A DNA stretch of 64,000 nt, from contig NZ_CP072014.1 in assembly GCF_017603825.1 (NCBI RefSeq), positions 434,001-498,000 of the forward strand, in the 5' to 3' direction. The position numbers were made by a program, and so were the translations under genes. Each line of letters starts with the position of its first letter. Positions within the stretch are counted from its first letter, which is position 1. This DNA is from Arthrobacter crystallopoietes. GTDB lineage: Bacteria > Actinomycetota > Actinomycetes > Actinomycetales > Micrococcaceae. Below, in pieces: positions 50,252 to 59,496 of the stretch. Under the pieces are notes generated by a model. That model was not told the origin of the DNA. It did not search any database and was given only the letters and a program-made list of their open reading frames with translations.

Positions 50252-51142
50252 TCAGGCCGTGGCGGAACCTGCGCCGGAATCGGTCTGGACCGCAGCCGCG
50301 GGGCGGTGGCCCTGTTTGGCGAGCTGGATTTGTTCGTAGACGTGGTGGCGCAGTTCGGTGAAGCGTGGCAGCGAGCGAGTGTTGAGCTGGTCACGCTCGT
50401 CCGGCAGATCGATGGCCAGGTCTTCCTGGATGACCGTCGGCGAGCTGGAAAGGATGATCACGCGTTCACCGAGGTAGACGGACTCGTCGATGTCGTGGGT
50501 GACGAACAGGACCGTGACGCCGAGTTTGCGCCAGACCGTGCGGATCAGGTCTTCCAGGTCCGCCCGGGTCTGCGCGTCCACCGCGGCGAACGGCTCGTCC
50601 ATGAGCAGCACTTCGGGCTGGTACGCCACGGCGCGGGCGATCGCCACGCGCTGCTGCATGCCACCGGAGAGCTGCCAGGGGTAGGACTGCGGCACGTGGG
50701 ACAGTCCGACGGCCTCCAGCGCATCGTCGACAAGCTTGTCCCGCTCGGCCCGCGGCACGCCCTGGTTCTTCAGCGGCAGCTCGACGTTCTCGCGCACCCG
50801 CATCCAAGGAAAGAGGGAGCGGCCGTATTCCTGGAACACGACGGCCATCTTCTTCGGCGGCCCGGAGACGCGTGTACCGTTTAGCAGCACTTCGCCCTCG
50901 GTCGGCGCCATCAGCCCGGAGATGCACTTGAGCAGGGTGGTCTTGCCGGAGCCGGACGGGCCTACCAGGCAGGCCAGCTCGCCGGCCTTCAGGTCGAAAG
51001 TCAGGTTTCGCACGGCCTCGATGTCGCCGCCGTCGGTCTTGTAGACCTTTTTCAGGTTCCGGACCGAGAGCATGGCCTCGTTCCCGGGCAGGGTCTTGCC
51101 TGCCGGGGCGGGAGTGGTTCCGGGTGTTGTTTCAGACTGCAT
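50252..51142 (-). CDS. ABC importer ATPase (SsuB/TauB-like)
   Basis: This 296-residue ATPase has Walker A GPSGSGKTT (about 60-68), Q-loop FQEYGRSLFPW (about 107), ABC signature LSGGMQQR (about 158), Walker B VLLMDEPFAAVD (about 178) and the switch His in FVTHDIDES (about 213). This is the nitrate/sulfonate/taurine importer class. It overlaps the permease gene by 11 bases and is last in a four-gene operon. Confidence 0.94.
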   Translation of the reverse strand: MQSETTPGTTPAPAGKTLPGNEAMLSVRNLKKVYKTDGGDIEAVRNLTFDLKAGELACLVGPSGSGKTTLLKCISGLMAPTEGEVLLNGTRVSGPPKKMAVVFQEYGRSLFPWMRVRENVELPLKNQGVPRAERDKLVDDALEAVGLSHVPQSYPWQLSGGMQQRVAIARAVAYQPEVLLMDEPFAAVDAQTRADLEDLIRTVWRKLGVTVLFVTHDIDESVYLGERVIILSSSPTVIQEDLAIDLPDERDQLNTRSLPRFTELRHHVYEQIQLAKQGHRPAAAVQTDSGAGSATA

Positions 51143-51905
51143 TTTCTACCTCTCGCAGGCCGTGGTACCAGCGCAGCACACGCCGCTCGGTCCACTGGAA
51201 GATGAATGACAAGGCGACGCCGATCAGGCCCAGGACCACAATCCCGGACCACATTTCCGGAATCGCGAAGGACCGCTGGAACTGCACGATCGTGAAGCCG
51301 AGCCCCGAGGACGAGGCGAACATTTCGGAAATGACCATCAGGATCAAGCCGATGGACAGGCACTGGCGGATACCGGCCATGATCTGCGGACCGGCCGAGG
51401 GAAGCACCAGGTACTTGATCCGCGCCCAGCCGTGGATGCCGTAGGTGTGCGCCGAATCCGAGAGCACCCCGTCAATGGCGCGGACACCTTCGATGGTGTT
51501 CAGCAGCACCGGCCACACGCAACCCGAAATGATCACCGCGACCTTCATACCGTCCGTAATGCCCATCAGCAGCATCAGCACCGGCACCAGGACCGGCGGC
51601 GGAATGGCGCGGAAGAATTCGAGCACCGGCTCCGTCAGATCCCGCAGCCACTTGACCGAACCGATCAGCAGGCCCGCGACAATGCCGATGATGATCGCCG
51701 AGACAACTCCGACGACCAACCGCCCGATACTGGGCAGCACATCAGAGAGGATCCGCTCCCCGAACCATGTCTCGGCAAACGCCTCGGCCAGCAGGGCCGG
51801 GGTCGGCACGAAGAAATTCGTCTCCCCCAGCGTCGAAGCCCACCAGATCGCAACCAGGATCAGAGGCAGTGCCAGCACGTATCCGAGAGTCTTCAAGAAC
51901 CTCAT
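51132..51905 (-). CDS. ABC importer permease (SsuC-like) 1
   Basis: This 257-residue permease has six transmembrane helices. The EAA coupling loop lies around GWARIKYLVLPSAGPQIMAG (about 158-177). Family features include WWASTLGETNFFVPTPALL near the N-terminus. It pairs with the second permease to form a heterodimeric channel. Its start overlaps the stop of the other permease by 4 bases (ATGA). Confidence 0.93.
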   Translation of the reverse strand: MRFLKTLGYVLALPLILVAIWWASTLGETNFFVPTPALLAEAFAETWFGERILSDVLPSIGRLVVGVVSAIIIGIVAGLLIGSVKWLRDLTEPVLEFFRAIPPPVLVPVLMLLMGITDGMKVAVIISGCVWPVLLNTIEGVRAIDGVLSDSAHTYGIHGWARIKYLVLPSAGPQIMAGIRQCLSIGLILMVISEMFASSSGLGFTIVQFQRSFAIPEMWSGIVVLGLIGVALSFIFQWTERRVLRWYHGLREVENAV

Positions 51906-52744
51906 ACGATCACCTCCGAACGGATCGAGGAATGCCAGGACAGGGTCTTGCGCTCAATGAAACGCATGAGCAGATTAATGACGACGCCGATCAGGCCGGT
52001 CGCGAGTACCAGCGCGTACATCCCCGAGATCGCGCCGCCCGACTGGGCCAGGGCGATCTCCCTGCCCAAACCGGGCGAACCGATCACCAGTTCCGCCGTG
52101 ATCGCCAGGATCAGCGCCACCGAGGCGGCAAGGCGGATGCCGGTCATCAGGTACGGCAGGGCCGTCGGGAACACCACGTGGCGGACCCGCGCCATGGAGC
52201 CCAGGCCGTAGGACTTGGCCGTCTGCATCGCCACATTGTCCACATCGGCGACCCCGTAAAGCACCTGGATGAAGACCTGCCAGAACGATGCGTAGACCAC
52301 CAGCATCAGGGTTGATTCGATCTTCACGCCGAACAGCAGCACGGCCAGCGGAATCAACGCCACCGACGGTATCGGACGGAGGAACTCCACGGTCGAGTTG
52401 GTGAACTTCCGCAGGAACATCGACGAACCGATAATGAAGCCCAGCACCACGGCCAGCACGATCGCCATCACCAGACCGATCGCCCAGGCCAGCATGGTCT
52501 CGCCCACCGCAACCCAGAACGCCGTCAAACCGAAGTCAGTGACCAGCGCCGCGATGACCTCACTGGCCGGCGGCAGGAAGCGGGGCTCAACGATGCCCAC
52601 CCGGGGAACCAACTCCCACAGCAACAAAAACCCGATAATGCCCGCGATCCCAAGCAACTGCTTCGACGGCAGCTTCTTTGCTGGCTGCTTTCCGCCCCGC
52701 GGGATGGGCGCAGCACTATTGGTTGTTACGGCTTCTTGGGTCAT
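51902..52744 (-). CDS. ABC importer permease (SsuC-like) 2
   Basis: This 280-residue permease has a cytosolic Lys-rich N-terminus (about 1-28) and six transmembrane helices. The coupling loop LGSMARVRHVVFPTALPYLM is at about 180-199, and GIVEPRFLPPASEVIAALV is the typical periplasmic segment. It is coupled to the binding-protein gene by a 4-base overlap. Confidence 0.93.
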   Translation of the reverse strand: MTQEAVTTNSAAPIPRGGKQPAKKLPSKQLLGIAGIIGFLLLWELVPRVGIVEPRFLPPASEVIAALVTDFGLTAFWVAVGETMLAWAIGLVMAIVLAVVLGFIIGSSMFLRKFTNSTVEFLRPIPSVALIPLAVLLFGVKIESTLMLVVYASFWQVFIQVLYGVADVDNVAMQTAKSYGLGSMARVRHVVFPTALPYLMTGIRLAASVALILAITAELVIGSPGLGREIALAQSGGAISGMYALVLATGLIGVVINLLMRFIERKTLSWHSSIRSEVIV

Positions 52745-53721
52745 GGCAGCAGCTCATCCAGGTTCGGGGCCTCGCTCAACGTGCCGTACTTTGCGGCCGC
52801 TTCGCCGAGCGTCTGGGCCGCTTCACGGCTGAACTCCGGGCGGTATTCCGGCAGGGTCAGCTTTGCGAGGGTTTCAGCATCGATTTCGGTGTAGGTTCCG
52901 ACAATGTCCCGGACCTCCTGCGGGTTCTCCTGCGCGTATTCAAGTGACTTGTTCATGGCCCTGGTGAACTTGTCCACAAGTTCCGGTTCGCTCTGAACCT
53001 TTTCGGAAGTCGTAAAGTAGCCGGCAATGTCAAGCTCGGGATGCATCTCCGTGAAATTCCACGAAATTACCCGGGCTCCCTCTGACCGCGCCTGGGTCAG
53101 GAACGGATCCAGGATCCACGCGGCATCGACCTGGCCGTTCTGGAGTGCTGCCGGAGCGTCCGGGAATGCGACTTCCACGAAGTCGATGTTGTCCGGGTTG
53201 CCGCCGTCCTTTTCAACCACGTGCTTGATGGTTGTGTCGCCGATATTGGAGAGATTGTTGACCGAAACGGTCTTGCCTTCGAGGTCGGCCGCGGACTTAA
53301 TGTCGGAATCTTCCGGAACGACTACGGCACCAAAGCCTGCCCCTTCCTCACCGGTGGTGGAGGCCCCGTTGGCAACGAACTGCAGGTCCAGTCCTTTGTC
53401 GTTCGCCACCATCACCGAAATCAGATTGGAGAAAGCAAAGTCAAAACTACCGCTGACCACGCCGGGAACGATCGCGGCTCCGCCGGTAGCGGTCTGTAGA
53501 TCCAACTCAAGACCTTCTTCGGCGAAGAAGCCCTTCTCGTCACCGAGCCAGATGGGCGCTGTATCCACAATCGGGATCACCCCGACGGTGATCTTGGTCA
53601 GTCCGCCGCTACCGGCGTCGGCGGGCGCCTCGGAGCCGCCACCGCTCGGGGAGCCACTGCCGCAGGCAGATAGGGCGAGCACTGAAACTGCGGCCACAAG
53701 CGCGGTCAGTCTACGTTTCAT
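52741..53721 (-). CDS. ABC importer substrate-binding lipoprotein
   Basis: This 326-residue lipoprotein has signal MKRRLTALVAAVSVLALSAC with the lipobox Cys at 20. It shows DTAPIWLGDEKGFFAEEGLE and ends KYGTLSEAPNLDELLP. It is the closest paralogue of the 5277-6260 protein. It leads the four-gene importer operon and its own promoter carries a relative of the MarR motif at 53883. GGAG lies 5 bases before the ATG. Confidence 0.94.
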   Translation of the reverse strand: MKRRLTALVAAVSVLALSACGSGSPSGGGSEAPADAGSGGLTKITVGVIPIVDTAPIWLGDEKGFFAEEGLELDLQTATGGAAIVPGVVSGSFDFAFSNLISVMVANDKGLDLQFVANGASTTGEEGAGFGAVVVPEDSDIKSAADLEGKTVSVNNLSNIGDTTIKHVVEKDGGNPDNIDFVEVAFPDAPAALQNGQVDAAWILDPFLTQARSEGARVISWNFTEMHPELDIAGYFTTSEKVQSEPELVDKFTRAMNKSLEYAQENPQEVRDIVGTYTEIDAETLAKLTLPEYRPEFSREAAQTLGEAAAKYGTLSEAPNLDELLP

Positions 53722-54123
53722 TTCTACTCCTTAGTGATCCCTTGGAGACACGGGATAACCTGAATGTTCGCTTAACGAACGCGTGTTCACCCATCAGTCT
53801 GCGCGACTCCTTTTGTGACGTCAAACACATCACCTCTTCGTTATAGACACGATACTCGGTGACGCCCCTATGCGGGACTGAATTGAACTTTTCAACGAAT
53901 TGTGAAGCGAGATAACAAACGGGAGCTCACGACTCTCCAGTGTCAGAACTGCGTAGAATCGATGAGTCCTGGACGTGACAAACCTGCAACGGGATGGTGA
54001 CCGGAAACCCATTTGTGGCTGGTTCTTTCGCGCGTATCGTGAGTGATAACCACAGGCCACCGGCCCCTGAGCGGAGACATGAGCATCCTCGTTCCGGCGG
54101 CATCACGTTTACACGGGGTCAAT
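53722..54123. promoter_or_regulatory. 402-bp divergent promoter region with operator site C
   Basis: TTGAACTTTTCAA (53883-53895), followed by CGAATTGTGAA, matches the reverse complement of the site A/B core at 11 of 13 positions. Read on the minus strand, TTGAAA and CATAGG about 17 bases apart suit a promoter for the importer. The rest, including the leader of the GerMN-like gene, shows no convincing gene. Confidence 0.45.
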
Positions 54124-55254
54124 ATGAGCAGGCAACGAGTTCTGGGGACCGCATCCGCAGCACTGCTGCTGGCTCTGACAGCGTGCAGCCCTTCGACCGG
54201 ACAAGGGCAGTCACCCACGGCAAATCCACCGGCCACGGTCGCTGCCGAGCCCCAGGCCATTACCCCGCCTACAACTCCGGTTCGCGGCCCATCGGATCCG
54301 CCAGCGGCGTCGGCGCCACCGGTTAAGGCCCCCGCACCGACCGAGGAAAAGGCTACATCGCCTGTCACCCAGTCGGAAGTTTCAGTGAGATCCGAGAACG
54401 GGGCCGGAGTTCCCCTGACGATGTACTACATCGCAGTAGAAGACGGAGGTGCCTCCGGCGCGGAGATCGGCTGCAGGGACAGCCTCGTCGCCACCTATAC
54501 GGAGCCTGTCAAGACTAACGATCAGGTCCAGGCCAGCATCGAGCACCTGCTCGCGGACGGGGATAGATTGCACGGATCATCCGGACTCTACAACGCCCTC
54601 CACGAATCCGCACTGACCTTCGAACGAGCCAGGATCGATGGTGACACCGTCACTGTCCACCTTTCCGGCGAGCTCAAATCCGGAGGCTCGTGCGATGACC
54701 CGCGGGTGGAATGGCAGCTGAGGCAGACCGCAGCCACTGCCGCCGGAGTCGGCGAGGCCATCATCCTGGTCAACGGGATCCGGATTGAGGATTACCTCAG
54801 CGGACGCGGCCCTGCCGCTCCCAAAGCACCAGCTGCACAGGCCGCCATTACAGTTCCTTTGACCATCTATTACATCGGGCTTGCCGGCGAGGAGACTTCA
54901 GGCGGCGGCATAGGGTGCGGCGACAGCCTCATTGCCACCCTTACACAACCTGTAACGTTCACCGATCAGCTTGGGGCGAGCATCACACATTTGTTGGCAA
55001 ACAAGCAAGAGTTTCTTGGCGAGTCAGGCCTCTATAACGCGCTGAATTCCTCCGCATTGTCCTACCAGGGCAGCAGCTACGACGGCGATACCGTGACAGT
55101 TAAGCTGTCCGGCAGTGTTACGGTCGGTGGAACCTGTGACGGTCCTCGCATCGAAGCGCAGCTGGAGCAGACCGCCGCCACAGCCGCCGGTGTTGCCGAA
55201 GCCGTGGTGCTGGTCAACGGCATCCCAATTGAAAAACTCCTCGACGTGAAGTAG
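54124..55254 (+). CDS. Lipoprotein with two GerMN-like domains
   Basis: This 376-residue lipoprotein has signal MSRQRVLGTASAALLLALTA and the lipobox Cys at about 21. A Pro/Ala-rich disordered linker follows (about 25-90). Two copies of a roughly 130-residue domain share PLTMYYIAVEDGG / PLTIYYIGLAGEE, a conserved CxDSL/CGDSL, SGLYNALHESAL / SGLYNALNSSAL, and QTAATAAGV...LVNGI. This fits GerMN (sporulation/spore germination) domains, also common in actinobacterial surface lipoproteins such as LpqB-like proteins. It is convergent with the SpaB_C gene. The start ATG 54124 gives the signal directly. Confidence 0.82.
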   Translation: MSRQRVLGTASAALLLALTACSPSTGQGQSPTANPPATVAAEPQAITPPTTPVRGPSDPPAASAPPVKAPAPTEEKATSPVTQSEVSVRSENGAGVPLTMYYIAVEDGGASGAEIGCRDSLVATYTEPVKTNDQVQASIEHLLADGDRLHGSSGLYNALHESALTFERARIDGDTVTVHLSGELKSGGSCDDPRVEWQLRQTAATAAGVGEAIILVNGIRIEDYLSGRGPAAPKAPAAQAAITVPLTIYYIGLAGEETSGGGIGCGDSLIATLTQPVTFTDQLGASITHLLANKQEFLGESGLYNALNSSALSYQGSSYDGDTVTVKLSGSVTVGGTCDGPRIEAQLEQTAATAAGVAEAVVLVNGIPIEKLLDVK

Positions 55255-55307
55255 CCAGCAACGAGCGGGGACAGACGGGGAGCGTACAGTTTGGCCCCGA
55301 ACAGCCG

Positions 55308-55444
55308 ACTGGCCGGAACCGTTGGGGGCAGTTCCGGCCAGTAAGCCTTGGGGGAACTGGCCGGAACCGTTGGGGGAAGTTCCGGCCAGTAGTTTTATTG
55401 GGGGGGGTAACTGGCCGGAGCCGTTGGGGGAAGCTCCGGCCAGT
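55308..55444. repeat. Three tandem hairpin repeats
   Basis: Three units have 12-bp perfect stems and 11-nt loops. Unit 1 is ACTGGCCGGAAC (55308-55319) / GTTCCGGCCAGT (55331-55342). Unit 2 is the same at 55356-55367 / 55379-55390. Unit 3 is ACTGGCCGGAGC (55410-55421) / GCTCCGGCCAGT (55433-55444). The loops read CGTTGGGGGCA, CGTTGGGGGAA and CGTTGGGGGAA. The stem in unit 3 changed on both arms and kept pairing. They lie between convergent genes. Confidence 0.9.
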
Positions 55445-55469
55445 GGTTCATGGGGTTGTGATGCGGGAT

Positions 55470-55658
55470 TTACTGCCAGGCGTGGTCTGCCCAAGCTGCA
55501 TCTCGCGAGTAATCGCTGCCAGTCAAGTTCCACAGATCGCCATCCTGGCCATGAGCTCCCACAACTCCGATCTGGTCGAGTGCTGAAGCCGGGCCTTGTT
55601 CTTTGTTGCCGGAGGCCAGCGGGCCCAAGGGCGCCGATGTGATGCCATAGGGAGTCAT
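55470..55658 (-). CDS. Possible 62-residue peptide coupled to the SpaB_C gene
   Basis: The ATG overlaps the TGA of the SpaB_C gene (ATGA at 55655-55658), which suggests coupled translation. The protein is polar, begins MTPYGITSAPLGPLASGNKE and is rich in Asp, Trp and Gly toward the end (DLWNLTGSDYSRDAAWADHA). I recognise no family. It could be a small partner of the enzyme, a second substrate peptide, or an unused frame. Confidence 0.4.
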   Translation of the reverse strand: MTPYGITSAPLGPLASGNKEQGPASALDQIGVVGAHGQDGDLWNLTGSDYSRDAAWADHAWQ

Positions 55659-56626
55659 CGTCTTCTCTTCTCCAACAGAGCGGATTCAGTTTCCGGAGTC
55701 CAGGCACGGGCATAAATTCCCAAAGCCGCCTCTTCCCACAGTGTGAAGCCCAAGCGGTTCATCATCAGATGTGACTGGCTAAAAGTCAGATTCTGCGCAC
55801 CGCGGCTAACCCTCGATTTATCTGCCCGGTACAAGTAGGCGTCAATAGCCCGCTTCCAGCGGCGACGCCAGTTTTGCACGCTTCCCTCGGCTGCAGTGGC
55901 GGCCATCAGACGGTGCATCGGTGCGGTTTTCGGCGCCAGAGTGGCGGCCAAACCGAGTCGGGCTTTGGCAGCGCCACGTCCAAGCTCCATTGTCGAGACA
56001 CGGAGGTGGTTGTCCCAGCAGTAATCCCAGGAGAGCCGGCGGCGGTCAGGCCATTGCGGAGCCTTCGGCCCGTTGAGCATGGCCCAAGCAGCGTCGGAGA
56101 GCAACAGGGCGCCGAGGGCAGTGCGGCCTTGCGACTTGTTGAACCGCTGCGCTGCCCAGCTACCAAGTTCAGAAGACAGTTCGAAGACCTCTTCGGCAAG
56201 TTCGAGCCCTTCGAGCCCGCCGAATCTGTCCAGATCCGATTCCTGCACCAAGGCGACAGAATCCGTTCCTAGAGTGCCGATCAGATCCACGCTGTCCGGC
56301 GACACGACATAGTGCTGCTGGACTCGAACGGTTGGCAGGATCTCAAGGAGCCGGTTCCGGGCCGCCAACTCAAACCTTTGGAGGCTATCAAGGGCTGAGC
56401 GGTGGCCCAGGAACCGGACCTTTATGTGAGGCCCCACCTCATCAACATGGTGACTGAAGTACCAGCGGCCCACGCCTTCGCGGCGAGCGTGGGCCACCAG
56501 TGGTGTAACCAGTTCTCCTATGACGGTTTCGGCTACGTCTTGTCTACCCGTGTAAATAGACAGGACCCACCAGTAGCGTTTGAGACTGAGCTTTTCCGAA
56601 GAGCGTACGGCTGTCAGCTGGCTCAT
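55655..56626 (-). CDS. SpaB_C (lantibiotic dehydratase C-terminal / thiopeptide-type) protein
   Basis: This 323-residue stand-alone protein matches the C-terminal elimination domain of LanB enzymes. It shows WWVLSIYTGRQDVAETVIGE near residue 18, RWYFSHHVDEVGPHIKVRFL (about 54-73) and a VQQHYVVSPDSVDLIG segment. In class I lanthipeptides this domain removes glutamate from glutamylated Ser/Thr; relatives in thiopeptide pathways perform the [4+2] ring closure. No LanB N-terminal (glutamylation), LanC or YcaO partner is present. Upstream on the same strand is a 44-codon peptide gene. AGGAG precedes the ATG. Confidence 0.82.
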   Translation of the reverse strand: MSQLTAVRSSEKLSLKRYWWVLSIYTGRQDVAETVIGELVTPLVAHARREGVGRWYFSHHVDEVGPHIKVRFLGHRSALDSLQRFELAARNRLLEILPTVRVQQHYVVSPDSVDLIGTLGTDSVALVQESDLDRFGGLEGLELAEEVFELSSELGSWAAQRFNKSQGRTALGALLLSDAAWAMLNGPKAPQWPDRRRLSWDYCWDNHLRVSTMELGRGAAKARLGLAATLAPKTAPMHRLMAATAAEGSVQNWRRRWKRAIDAYLYRADKSRVSRGAQNLTFSQSHLMMNRLGFTLWEEAALGIYARAWTPETESALLEKRRR

Positions 56627-56725
56627 GCGCTTCTCCTAGATCTGCTCGCTGGTGGTTGGGGAGGGATAGCCGTTGCCGTCCTGGTTACAGGATCAGCGGG
56701 TATGCTGTTGCGGTGGGGCAGCTTT

Positions 56726-56860
56726 TTACCAGTCCCAGGCAGCCGTAACGATTGCGTTGGACTGCTGGCCCTGGTCGACTGCCACCGCAGGAGTGGCCGC
56801 CGAGACCGCACCTACAGCAAGCAGTAGACCTGCCGTAATGCCGGCGATCTTCTTGAACAT
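56726..56860 (-). CDS. Small exported-looking peptide, candidate substrate of the SpaB_C protein
   Basis: This is a 44-residue ORF with AAGGGGA ending 6 bases before its ATG. It begins MFKKIAGITAGLLLAVGAVS and has an AVA cleavage-like motif near residue 27. The remainder VDQGQQSNAIVTAAWDW is 17 residues and ends Trp-Asp-Trp. It ends 99 bp before the SpaB_C gene on the same strand. The N-terminus looks like a Sec signal rather than an ordinary LanA leader. There are only two Ser/Thr in the tail and no Cys, so classic lanthionine rings are impossible. Confidence 0.6.
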   Translation of the reverse strand: MFKKIAGITAGLLLAVGAVSAATPAVAVDQGQQSNAIVTAAWDW

Positions 56861-57159
56861 GTCATTCCCCTTCGATGTGAGTGGCAATCCATCGAGTATC
56901 GTTCCCCCGACTCTTCAAGAGTTCCGCGTCACCCTGCATACTGTCCAGTCCATAAGGGGGCAACATCATGACATGCCCTTATCGGGACGAATCCCGGCGT
57001 CCTTGAACGTCCTGACACCTGGTCGAAACCGCGGATTCCCGCCTGATTCAAGGATTTTCCAACATGAGTATGATTTGAGTATGACCACTACAGTTGGGTG
57101 GCATATACCGGACATGGCAAATAGTTACTTGTCGCGAATCATGCTTGAGGGGGCACCAA
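56861..57159. promoter_or_regulatory. Divergent regulatory region of peptide and LuxR genes
   Basis: Between the divergent small-peptide and regulator genes lies an inverted repeat ATAAGGG (56952-56958) / CCCTTAT (56976-56982) with extra pairing inside. There is also a direct repeat TGAGTATGA at 57065 and 57077. Either may be a LuxR-type binding site. No other gene fits. Confidence 0.45.
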
Positions 57160-58134
57160 ATGTTGAGTGGGACAGCCTTTGAGCTCTATGAATACGCGGT
57201 AACCCACCCGGACTGGACCAAGGAGTCCGCTTCGACTGCGCTCGGCTACACCATTCGGGATCTCAATAGCGCCATTACTGAGCTCACTGGACGACGCCTG
57301 TTCCAACAGCCGGCGCCGGATGTGGACTGCTTTACTGCCATCTCTCCGGACGTGGCCTTGGCGCAGCTAGTCGAGGCCGACGAACGCCTGCTTATCGATC
57401 TACGCGCCAAGATCAGCGGGCACCGGAGCGACATGGCTTCGCTTGTTCCCACATACCTTGCGGCACGAAAGCGAATCGCCCTCGATTCGTCCATTGAAAT
57501 ACTCGAAGACCCTGGGGTAATTCGAAAGTTGCTGATTGACTATGGGCGGGATGTCACAGAACAGGTCCTGATCAGCCAGCCCGGCTCAGGATCTACGGCG
57601 GAGGTCCATGAAGAGGGCATCCAGAAGGACCTGGAACTCCTGGAACGCGGGATAGTCAGAAAAAATCTCTATAACGCCAGCACTCTCGATCATGTGCCTA
57701 CGCGGAAGGCGGTCGCCGCCACAGCCCCTGCGGGCTTGGAATATCGGACATTGCCCTACGTGCCACTGAAAGTCCTGATCTTCGACCAGTCCTTGGCACT
57801 CGTTGCCCGCCAACTGGACGCGGACGATCGAGCAGCTCTGGTGGTGCGTGATGTCAATCTGATCCATGTATTCACGCAGCTATTCAACGTGGCATGGGAA
57901 CTTGCCACCCCCTACGGCTGGGAGGCTGAAAGCCGAACCCCTGCTGGCCTCAACAGCATCCAGCGGTCCGTACTCCGGGGCATGGCTGCTGGTTATTCCG
58001 ACGAAGTGATTGCACGGAGGCTGGACATCAGCGTGCGCACCTGCCGGCGGCATATCGCATGGATGCTCGAAGAACTGGGCGCCGAAAGCCGCTTCCAGGC
58101 AGCGTTGAAGGCCAAAGAAGCGGGCTGGCTTTAA
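57160..58134 (+). CDS. LuxR-type transcriptional regulator with N-terminal TrmB-like part
   Basis: This 324-residue regulator starts at ATG 57160 after GAGGGGG. A TrmB/winged-like N-terminal region (about 1-70) contains MLSGTAFELYEYAVTHPDWT. A central domain follows (about 75-240), with KVLIFDQSLALVARQLDADD resembling the phospholipase-D-like repeat of such regulators. The C-terminal LuxR HTH (about 265-320) reads RSVLRGMAAGYSDEVIARRL...SVRTCRRHIAWML. It is divergent from the small-peptide/SpaB_C unit and probably controls it. The ligand is unknown. Confidence 0.85.
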   Translation: MLSGTAFELYEYAVTHPDWTKESASTALGYTIRDLNSAITELTGRRLFQQPAPDVDCFTAISPDVALAQLVEADERLLIDLRAKISGHRSDMASLVPTYLAARKRIALDSSIEILEDPGVIRKLLIDYGRDVTEQVLISQPGSGSTAEVHEEGIQKDLELLERGIVRKNLYNASTLDHVPTRKAVAATAPAGLEYRTLPYVPLKVLIFDQSLALVARQLDADDRAALVVRDVNLIHVFTQLFNVAWELATPYGWEAESRTPAGLNSIQRSVLRGMAAGYSDEVIARRLDISVRTCRRHIAWMLEELGAESRFQAALKAKEAGWL

Positions 58135-58202: not shown

Positions 58203-58226
58203 TCCTGTGTGAGTGAGAACACAGGA
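58203..58226 (+). promoter_or_regulatory. Palindrome over the start of the aminotransferase gene
   Basis: TCCTGTGT-N8-ACACAGGA is a perfect 8-bp dyad. TATCCT at 58201-58206 could be a -10, placing the transcript start at or near GTG 58213, which would be leaderless. No ribosome site is seen for any in-frame start. Confidence 0.4.
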
Positions 58227-59496
58227 ATCTTCCGCTTCTGCCGACATGCCAACCGAAACCGAAGTTGCCCTTGAACGCGCGGTCACTTCACATCGGCACC
58301 ACAGCCTTTACTCCGACCGGGCCGCCAAAATCAAGCAGTCCGCCGTTCGTGATGTCTTCGATATTTCGCTGCAGCCTGGCCTCGTCTCTCTCGCTGGCGG
58401 GAATCCGTTCCTGCAGTCCCTGCCTCTGGAGAAGCTCGGCGGGATGGCCTACCGTCTCATAACAGAGCAGGGCCTAACAGCTCTCCAGTACGGCGGCGGC
58501 CAAGGAACCGAGCGGCTTCGGGCCCAGGCCTGCGAAGTGATGGCCGAGGAGGGCATTGAGGATGCGGACCCGGCGAACGTTGTGATCACCACCGGTTCCC
58601 AGTCCGCCCAAGACGTCGCCTGCAAAGTCTTCTGCAATCCCGGCGATGTTGTGCTCTGCGAAGACCCAACTTATGTGGGTGCCCTGAACACTTTCGAGGC
58701 TTACGAGGTCATAGTGGAGACCGTGGCCATGGACGAGCTTGGCCTCGTCCCCGATGAACTGCAGCGGCGGATTGATGAGGTCCAATCTGCCGGCGGCAAC
58801 ATCAAGTTCCTTTACACCATCCCCAACTTCAACAACCCGTCGGGCATCACGCTCGCCGCAGAGCGCCGGCAGCGCATCGTGGAGATCTGCCAGGACGCGA
58901 ACATCCTGATTATTGAGGACAACCCGTACGGCTTGCTGCGCTTCGATGGCCATCCGATCGCCCCGCTCCGCGCTGGCAACCCGGACGACGTAATCTACAT
59001 GGGCTCGTTTTCCAAGATTCTCGCGCCCGGGCTGAGGATCGGATGGGCCCTGGTGCCGGCGCACTTGCAACGGCGTTTCTACCTAGCCAGCGAGGCCGTC
59101 ACGCTCTGCCCGCCCACGCTGAACCAGATGCTCATCTCGGAGTATCTGGATGGCCACGATTGGCGCGGCCAGATCACCACCTACCGCAGCCTCTATTCCG
59201 AGCGATGCGCAGCCATGCTCCACGCGCTCGAAGACTTCATGCCGGAGGGCGTCAGCTGGACGCAGCCGCAGGGAGGTTTCTTCGTCTGGGTGAGCCTGCC
59301 GGAGGGAATCGATACCTATCCACTGCTGTACAAGGCGATCGACGCCGGCGTCATCTTCATTCCCGGTGCCGCTTTCACCCCGTCCGACGATCCCTCCAGC
59401 AAGCTCAGGCTGGCATTTAGCGCCGTGTCAGCAGAGAACATCCGCGAGGGCGTGCGGCGGCTGGCTCCCGTATTGCAGGAGGCTATGAGCGCCTGA
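58213..59496 (+). CDS. PLP-dependent aminotransferase (class I/II, LysN/AraT type)
   Basis: This 427-residue fold-type I enzyme has VSLAGGNPFLQSLPLE at about 55, GSQSAQD (phosphate loop, about 127), EDPTYVGAL (about 150), the Asn-Pro site in IPNFNNPSGITL (about 205), and the Schiff-base Lys in MGSFSKILAPGLRIGW (about 265). It resembles 2-aminoadipate or aromatic amino acid transaminases without the MocR HTH. It may start at GTG 58213 (leaderless) or ATG 58246. It is downstream of the LuxR gene but across a promoter-like gap, so membership in the peptide locus is uncertain. Confidence 0.9.
   Translation: MRTQESSASADMPTETEVALERAVTSHRHHSLYSDRAAKIKQSAVRDVFDISLQPGLVSLAGGNPFLQSLPLEKLGGMAYRLITEQGLTALQYGGGQGTERLRAQACEVMAEEGIEDADPANVVITTGSQSAQDVACKVFCNPGDVVLCEDPTYVGALNTFEAYEVIVETVAMDELGLVPDELQRRIDEVQSAGGNIKFLYTIPNFNNPSGITLAAERRQRIVEICQDANILIIEDNPYGLLRFDGHPIAPLRAGNPDDVIYMGSFSKILAPGLRIGWALVPAHLQRRFYLASEAVTLCPPTLNQMLISEYLDGHDWRGQITTYRSLYSERCAAMLHALEDFMPEGVSWTQPQGGFFVWVSLPEGIDTYPLLYKAIDAGVIFIPGAAFTPSDDPSSKLRLAFSAVSAENIREGVRRLAPVLQEAMSA

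Follow-up and report, generated by a model that had tools for sequence, protein, structure and literature searches.

A conserved W-x-W peptide gene beside a stand-alone SpaB_C protein and a divergent LuxR-type regulator: a candidate short-peptide cassette of Micrococcaceae

The window analysed here, 64,000 nucleotides (nt) of Arthrobacter crystallopoietes DNA (assembly GCF_017603825.1, contig NZ_CP072014.1, positions 434,001 to 498,000 of the forward strand), contains a small peptide gene located between the genes of a SpaB_C (lantibiotic dehydratase C-terminal) protein and of a divergent LuxR-type regulator. The names wdwA (peptide), wdwB (SpaB_C protein), wdwC (a second small open reading frame, ORF) and wdwR (regulator) are introduced here for convenience. 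wdwA (56726 to 56860 of the window, minus strand) is a 44-codon gene with GAAGGGGAATGAC before its ATG; the peptide has a signal-peptide-like N-terminus, as judged by eye, contains no Cys, extends 17 residues past an AVA motif and ends with the core AAWDW. wdwB (55655 to 56626, minus strand) encodes a stand-alone SpaB_C (Lant_dehydr_C) protein of 323 amino acids (PF14028, E=8.6e-24). wdwR (57160 to 58134, plus strand) encodes a protein with a C-terminal LuxR (GerE) helix-turn-helix (HTH) and a central TrmB/DUF7436-like stretch, whose matches fell below the cut-offs. All three genes were found where a preliminary description had placed them. Its text did not mention the 62-codon wdwC (55470 to 55658, minus strand), with which its interval begins; this ORF overlaps the stop codon of wdwB in an ATGA and has the conserved C-terminus Y-x-R-D-A-A-W-A-x-x-x-W. 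Two conserved operator-like sites lie ahead of the peptide gene in the wdwR-wdwA intergenic region: dyad 1 (TGNCAT-N9-ATGNCA, 57099 to 57119) and, 141 nt from it, site 2 (GGGCATGTC-N7-TGCCC type, also written GGNCATGTC-type, 56958 to 56978). wdwB is the sole PF14028 match in the 4.38 Mb genome. The absence of a LanB N-terminal domain, a cyclase and YcaO, claimed earlier for the surroundings of the locus, proved to extend further: profile searches found no match to the LanB N-terminal domain, LanC or YcaO anywhere in the window's genome.

Homologs of the SpaB_C protein were present in all ten genomes of the window's genus (73-100% identical), and both small ORFs lay alongside in all ten. The seven relatives in the named collection were Arthrobacter, including A. 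crystallopoietes BAB-32, A. mangrovi, A. mobilis and A. hankyongi. Of 245 genomes of the family, 48 (9 of 32 genera) contained SpaB_C and 47 (8 genera) the LuxR protein. The two sets were the same except for one genome (G014; genomes, loci and genera are denoted by G, L and g numbers), which has SpaB_C in a split-LanB-type cluster and no such LuxR. In another genome, G030, the LuxR gene was located inside a full azole-type cluster, with no W-x-W peptide. Leaving out G030, 46 cassette genomes remained, belonging to seven genera (g1, g5, g8, g13, g25, g31 and g32). There was one main LuxR match per genome even where SpaB_C was multi-copy; G202 had an additional partial match. In a sample of 396 genomes of the order, the wdwC profile matched eight genomes, all of the window's family, and the SpaB_C profile eleven, nine of them in the family and the other two weak. 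In a phylum sample of 396 genomes the SpaB_C profile matched the window's own genome and two weak ones. These sets are samples rather than full coverage, and scoring in the SpaB_C searches was limited to each genome's five best first-look candidates. The cassette thus appears to be confined to the window's family in the samples searched. A search of 72,556 plasmid records for a plasmid-borne copy gave no match.

Conservation of the small ORF beside SpaB_C homologs, on which the preliminary description had staked its proposal, was borne out. Of the 47 LuxR genomes, 46 had, upstream of SpaB_C, an ORF with a ribosome site and an aromatic-x-Trp core (45 found by script, G073 by eye). The last core of these 46 peptides was WDW in 34, WEW in nine, and WGW, WAW and YDW in one each, so W-[D/E]-W accounted for 43. 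wdwA is a conserved gene, and the aromatic-x-Trp core is the sole constant part of its peptide. Across the 46 peptides the core contained no Cys and had no constant Ser or Thr adjoining it. To estimate chance occurrence, small ORFs with a ribosome site were collected from the retrieved loci, which amount to 1.8 million bases when both strands are counted, yielding 8,302 ORFs with nested starts counted. In 65 of them W[DE]W stood at the end or was followed by no more than six residues, and 52 of these were located within 450 nt upstream of SpaB_C. That left 13, of which four represented the same peptide, in three loci outside the SpaB_C list, and nine came from one homologous-looking place in three loci. 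The placement of W[DE]W ORFs before SpaB_C is not due to chance. The pN/pS ratio (non-synonymous to synonymous polymorphism) was 0.28 for the double-core wdwA of five genomes, 0.21 for its tail, and 0.49 for wdwA in seven genomes of the window's genus, indicating purifying selection. In searches of an open-access library no listed title or abstract opening described a W-x-W peptide paired with SpaB_C, and the terms WDW and Trp-Asp-Trp did not occur in the papers that two of these searches listed.

The peptides differed in the part preceding the core. Twenty-eight were over 35 residues long with signal-peptide-like starts, as judged by eye, and had one to six cores; the other 18 were leaderless, 7-22 residues in length, the shortest being MKSWDWF. 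Two to six cores were present in 11 of the 46. In genus g25 the unit GVWDWPQ was repeated six times in one species and four times in another, which shows copy-number change within a genus, and g31 peptides carried two or three SWDWPK or NWEWPK units. The tandem forms often had a small-x-Ala motif directly before the core (e.g. SVTA-SWDWPK), which may serve as a processing site. In five genomes of g32 the gene was as small as MKSWDWF; one of the five has a second possible ATG start a codon further upstream. The leaderless form is forced in cases such as L042 and L043, where an in-frame stop is only 11 codons from the MKSWDWF gene and the ATG is the sole start listed. The heptapeptide is about the size of a single core unit of the other forms. 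Two further observations concern this region. In L085 (G065) the SpaB_C gene was split into two overlapping frames by a frameshift, by pseudogene formation or by a sequencing error, and the MKKATAPVSIKSWEWF peptide and wdwC looked intact. In g25, g31 and g32 (e.g. G033, G039, G064, G040 and G105) a similar CGCCCCAGCGG-type stretch (G134: CGCTCCAGCGG) was located in the gap between wdwA and SpaB_C; this stretch could act as a processing element or form a structured 5' leader.

The assignment of WdwB to the SpaB_C family was clear: PF14028 matched residues 19-303 with 85.5 bits against a cut-off of 24.4, covering profile positions 1-248 of 255, while NCBIfam TIGR03891 fell just under its cut-off (48.2 vs 48.45). 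In a sequence search of solved structures MibB was matched with E 0.023 using the genus profile and 0.00056 using a wider profile, for which it was the sole match below 0.1. The structure model had a mean pLDDT (predicted local distance difference test) of 59. Its first fold neighbours were MibB, TbtD, MadB, TsrL and NisB, only MibB being clearly below E 0.001; from a model of such low confidence the comparison serves only to confirm the fold family.

According to PMC4979651, the NisB mutants R786A, R826A and H961A retain glutamylation and lose elimination. The corresponding positions were located by aligning the G030 protein to NisB (R784/R786 in PHIRLRI, R826 in VERYGG); the H961 position was placed provisionally through a short NRL motif shared with MibB. 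Among the 46 cassette proteins the R786 position was R in 24, K in eight and S, H or N in 14; the R826 position was K in 26, R in 14 and T or A in six; and the H961 position was H in 43, Q in two and R in one. Two split-LanB comparison proteins had R, K and H, so the change of R826 to K alone is not telling. D178, H207, R254 and Y264 were kept in 46 of the 46 proteins with letters at these positions, and the same residues were present in both split-LanB proteins and almost every paralog. Profile searches detected the LanB N-terminal domain (PF04738) in none of the 46 cassette genomes, though a diverged copy or a small PEARL (peptide aminoacyl-tRNA ligase) enzyme could escape this model; LanC (PF05147) was likewise found in none, and YcaO in three, always elsewhere in the genome. 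The earlier statement that the locus is unlike a standard cluster for lanthipeptides or thiopeptides is thus supported for the whole set. Since the core lacks any constant Ser, Thr or Cys and neither the LanB N-terminal domain nor LanC was matched, Ser/Thr dehydration is unlikely. When the scarcity of YcaO is added, glutamylation-elimination is unlikely too, which leaves another reaction or mere binding.

Genus g32 contained further SpaB_C copies (L054, L056-L063, L068, L070, L071, L074-L082, L087, L088), with up to seven matches per genome, scattered and some of them partial, and one LuxR match each. No core peptide was found beside these paralogs. In a tree of 73 SpaB_C rows the 15 proteins of g32 leaderless cassettes grouped together (support 95/91), and 25 of the 26 paralog rows, all from g32, adjoined them (87/98). 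The tree has a midpoint root and weak deep branches, so that a derived origin of the leaderless form in g32 is no more than possible.

A profile built from 23 copies detected wdwC in 44 of the 47 LuxR genomes; it was not found in G016, G030 and G073 (contig end). The G159 copy was weak (36.5 bits), having lost the Tyr and kept the end DDLRDAAWADQLWR. In the 23 aligned sequences G37, Y50, R52, D53, A54, W56, A57 and W61 (window numbering) were invariant, and the N-terminus drifted. The idea that WdwC is a detached thiopeptide leader was dropped when a profile comparison with the precursor of L118, the azole-type cluster of G030, gave nothing.

The GerE match of WdwR had E=5.8e-9, and its N-terminus is possibly, on weak evidence, a winged helix. 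The 8-mer GACATGGC (either strand) was present in the intergenic regions of 13 of 22 representatives, compared with at most five in 20 mononucleotide shuffles. Both sites were found with at least nine matching letters in 41 of the 46 genomes. Their spacing was 118-119 nt in five of these, 129-131 in 13, 140-142 in 22 and 152 in one, and changed within genera (140-142 and 152 in g31, 118-119 and 129-131 in g32). Steps of about 11 nt correspond to about one helical turn, which suggests that the sites are kept in helical phase. Five genomes were left out of this count: G064 and G211 (140 nt each) and G043 (108 nt) had a weak site 1 and spacings on the same ladder, whereas G016 (121 nt) and G073 (178 nt) had no credible sites. 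In G148 and G086 the LuxR gene was about 9 kb from wdwA, and both sites stayed with wdwA. WdwR would be the protein that binds them. The roughly 9 kb of other genes lying between LuxR and wdwA in these two loci (L116, L117) are probably sugar-catabolic, judging by sequence starts. Dyad 1 proved too loose a pattern to define a genome-wide regulon (62 places with at most one mismatch, control 17), and the one other exact match gave no clear lead.

The neighbourhood of the cassette was examined at 34 cassette loci by greedy calling of ORFs of at least 100 amino acids. Recurrent neighbours included genes for a 2-oxoacid dehydrogenase E2 (26 loci), a transketolase-type subunit (20) and alanine dehydrogenase (17), all of which look metabolic. 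The ten recurrent neighbour groups that were scanned included no gene for a protease or an immunity-like protein, and a single transporter, of the major facilitator superfamily (MFS), which occurred in four loci, all of g32. The aminotransferase gene next to wdwR (58213 to 59496) was rejected as a member of the system: with homologs spread over 26 of 32 genera and present in 93 of 120 family genomes, far beyond the cassette (the weakest matches, 42-54% identical, may be paralogs), it marks a chromosomal place. The ABC (ATP-binding cassette) transporter genes (50252 to 53721) were discarded too, the solute-binding gene being labelled in four loci only, all of the window's genus. A role in defence was not indicated; PADLOC has no model for SpaB_C or WdwC, and the LuxR protein touched a CARF-entry stretch only in its HTH region (E=0.0025). 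Downstream of the cassette, on the convergent strand, lies a lipoprotein-like gene with two Germane (GerMN) matches (54043 to 55254), a relative of which was labelled beside the cassette in part of the loci only. Three tandem 45-nt stem-loop repeats (ACTGGCCGGAAC...GTTCCGGCCAGT, 55302 to 55448) between its end and that of wdwC are likely terminators, and repeat-like sequence was seemingly present 3' of wdwC in L007 and L011.

The locus is best explained as a self-contained short-peptide cassette with the order wdwR / wdwA-wdwB-wdwC. Signal-peptide-like and leaderless forms, short cores and a dedicated regulator with phased sites resemble, by analogy, Gram-positive peptide signals, and the linked SpaB_C gives the locus the look of a system for ribosomally synthesized and post-translationally modified peptides (RiPPs). 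The reading that ranks highest, to which we give an even chance, is that wdwA encodes a short-peptide signal, with the SpaB_C protein as its modifying or binding partner and the LuxR protein as its reader. The preliminary description had suggested either a modified secreted signal that its own regulator senses or an undescribed class of RiPP; the proposal fits the form of the locus, given the leader-bearing and leaderless versions, the tandem cores, the co-occurrence with LuxR and the phased sites, whereas processing, modification, export and sensing are steps that we infer. As envisaged, the precursor would be exported through Sec and cut to a product of 5-7 residues, leaderless versions being used directly. 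The SpaB_C protein would bind the W-x-W peptide and modify it through a reaction that is not glutamate elimination; as constant residues, the core's Asp/Glu or Trp are the candidates. WdwR would bind both sites, loop the promoter and respond to the mature peptide, creating a feedback loop that senses density or state, and WdwC might serve SpaB_C as a docking or helper peptide, or be another of its substrates. The full combination, a new class of actinobacterial ribosomal signals with 5-7-residue W-[D/E]-W products, SpaB_C modification beyond glutamate chemistry, multi-core Sec precursors or seven-codon genes, and a LuxR/TrmB-like reader looping its promoter, is a tentative proposal whose chances we put somewhat below even.

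Several points weigh against this interpretation. The genomes are related to one another, so the counts do not represent independent events, and the spacing figures come from these related genomes and stand without a shuffled control. The models of SpaB_C and LuxR (mean pLDDT 59 and 51.7) allow no argument about a pocket or an active site. His at the H961 position in 43 of 46 proteins, and Lys at the R826 position in the split-LanB pair as well, leave room for elimination-related chemistry. PF04738 is an insensitive model: the LanB N-terminal protein of G030 scored E=1.2e-4, below the cut-off, in the genome search (30.1 bits vs 28 in a separate scan). One genus, g32, has many extra SpaB_C copies with no adjacent peptide found, and wdwC was not found in G016, nor in G073, where the contig ends. 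A cytosolic enzyme combined with Sec export would require modification before export, which is unusual for RiPPs. Moreover, we know of no pheromone receptor with a LuxR/TrmB-like build.

Ranking next is a new RiPP with a product that would act as an antibiotic, a cofactor or a metal/redox compound instead of a signal, made from the W-x-W core by SpaB_C under a plain cluster-situated LuxR regulator. Multi-core precursors are known among RiPPs, the core is strongly constrained, and the LuxR relative of G030 (38% identical) resides in a full YcaO/split-LanB cluster. However, the neighbour groups scanned contain neither a protease nor an immunity-like gene, and their sole transporter is the MFS protein of g32; the seven-codon form has no leader for enzyme recognition; and a core nearly invariant across many species would suit a receptor-bound signal or a cofactor better than an antibiotic. 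We consider this explanation less likely than the signal reading. Rather less probable, and third in rank, is that SpaB_C is catalytically dead and only binds the unmodified peptide as a carrier, chaperone or co-sensor of LuxR. This would account for the degenerate R786 position in 14 of 46 proteins, the lack of a detected glutamyl donor enzyme in the 46 cassette genomes and the lack of any other tailoring gene recurring beside the cassette among the groups scanned. The retention of D178, H207, R254 and Y264 argues for a functional enzyme, but may reflect only the fold, shared with the split-LanB pair and nearly all paralogs.

Two explanations assign the small ORFs other roles. WdwC could be the real substrate of SpaB_C, and wdwA an unrelated secreted peptide, given that WdwC is translationally coupled to SpaB_C in the window and that its RDAAWA...W end is conserved while the N-terminus drifts. 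The presence of wdwA in 46 of 47 genomes and the failure to find WdwC in G016, which retains SpaB_C, LuxR and a YDW peptide, make this improbable. It is still harder to regard wdwA as a Trp-rich attenuator or ribosome-stalling leader that controls SpaB_C and whose product has no function. MKSWDWF, seven codons with two for Trp, does resemble a leader ORF, and strong hairpins follow the ORF in G016 (z -6.3) and G033 (z -3.9), with G202 borderline (-2.2). But z was above -2 in 16 of the 19 folded genomes, which speaks against a general structure; attenuation does not require signal-peptide-like starts or up to six tandem cores, and the Asp/Glu kept in 44 of 46 peptides would have no role in a Trp-codon sensor.

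If the peptide-signal interpretation is correct, the cassette would add a new reaction to the SpaB_C fold, beyond elimination and [4+2] cycloaddition, and a peptide-signal system to the actinobacteria, for which few pairs of peptide signal and regulator are known to us. The seven-codon gene, below the reach of usual gene finding, would be among the smallest RiPP-type genes of which we are aware. For RiPPs and pheromones alike, leader-bearing, tandem-core and leaderless forms at one orthologous place would provide a natural experiment on the gain and loss of precursor leaders.

Compared with known systems, the cassette contains neither the LanB glutamyl-transferase domain, LanC and Ser/Thr plus Cys core of class I lanthipeptides nor the YcaO and Cys/Ser-rich precursor of thiopeptides and azole RiPPs. 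Stand-alone or split SpaB_C glutamyl lyases and thiopeptide [4+2] enzymes (SptBb, the CoiSA domain, TbtC, TbtD, TclM) have the PF14028 domain in common with WdwB. As far as the available texts describe them, known SpaB_C enzymes occur in clusters with LanB or a glutamyl transferase, of which none was found in the 46 cassette genomes with the insensitive model used. The cassette differs from the lyase systems at the R786 position, which 14 of 46 proteins have not conserved, and in its core, which is without constant Ser, Thr or Cys. Extra SpaB_C proteins of possibly different chemistry are described in PMC7268733 and PMC9486935. A related system within the family is L118 (G030), apparently a goadsporin/thiopeptide-type azole cluster, which has homologous SpaB_C and LuxR (38%) proteins; unlike the cassette, it contains YcaO, two nitroreductase-family genes (Pfam), a LanB N-domain protein and a Ser-rich precursor. 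L119 (G014) is a split-LanB-type cluster with a Ser-rich precursor, like L118, and both possibly make uncharacterised azole/thiopeptide-type products.

In gene size wdwA is comparable to mccA of microcin C7, a seven-codon gene for a modified peptide whose partner is the ThiF-type MccB; the sequences and the partner enzymes differ. Among the Firmicutes pheromones, XIP contains a Trp-rich motif. Gram-positive signals of 5-8 residues are, according to PMC10518010, either cut from secretion-signal propeptides or encoded directly as leaderless communication peptides. Leaderless SIP/RopB and SHP/XIP-type pheromones share with the cassette an ultrasmall ORF near a regulator and the occurrence of secretion-signal and leaderless forms. 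A small ORF near the regulator, as in short-peptide quorum sensing, was found in 46 of 47 genomes, the regulator being about 9 kb off in G148 and G086. An RRNPPA-type receptor was not found at the locus, WdwR matching GerE and, below the cut-off, TrmB/DUF7436. The cassette differs from the Firmicutes pheromones in belonging to Actinobacteria, in its LuxR/TrmB-like rather than RRNPPA regulator, in its linked SpaB_C protein, in its tandem cores and in having both the leader-bearing and the leaderless form at one orthologous locus.

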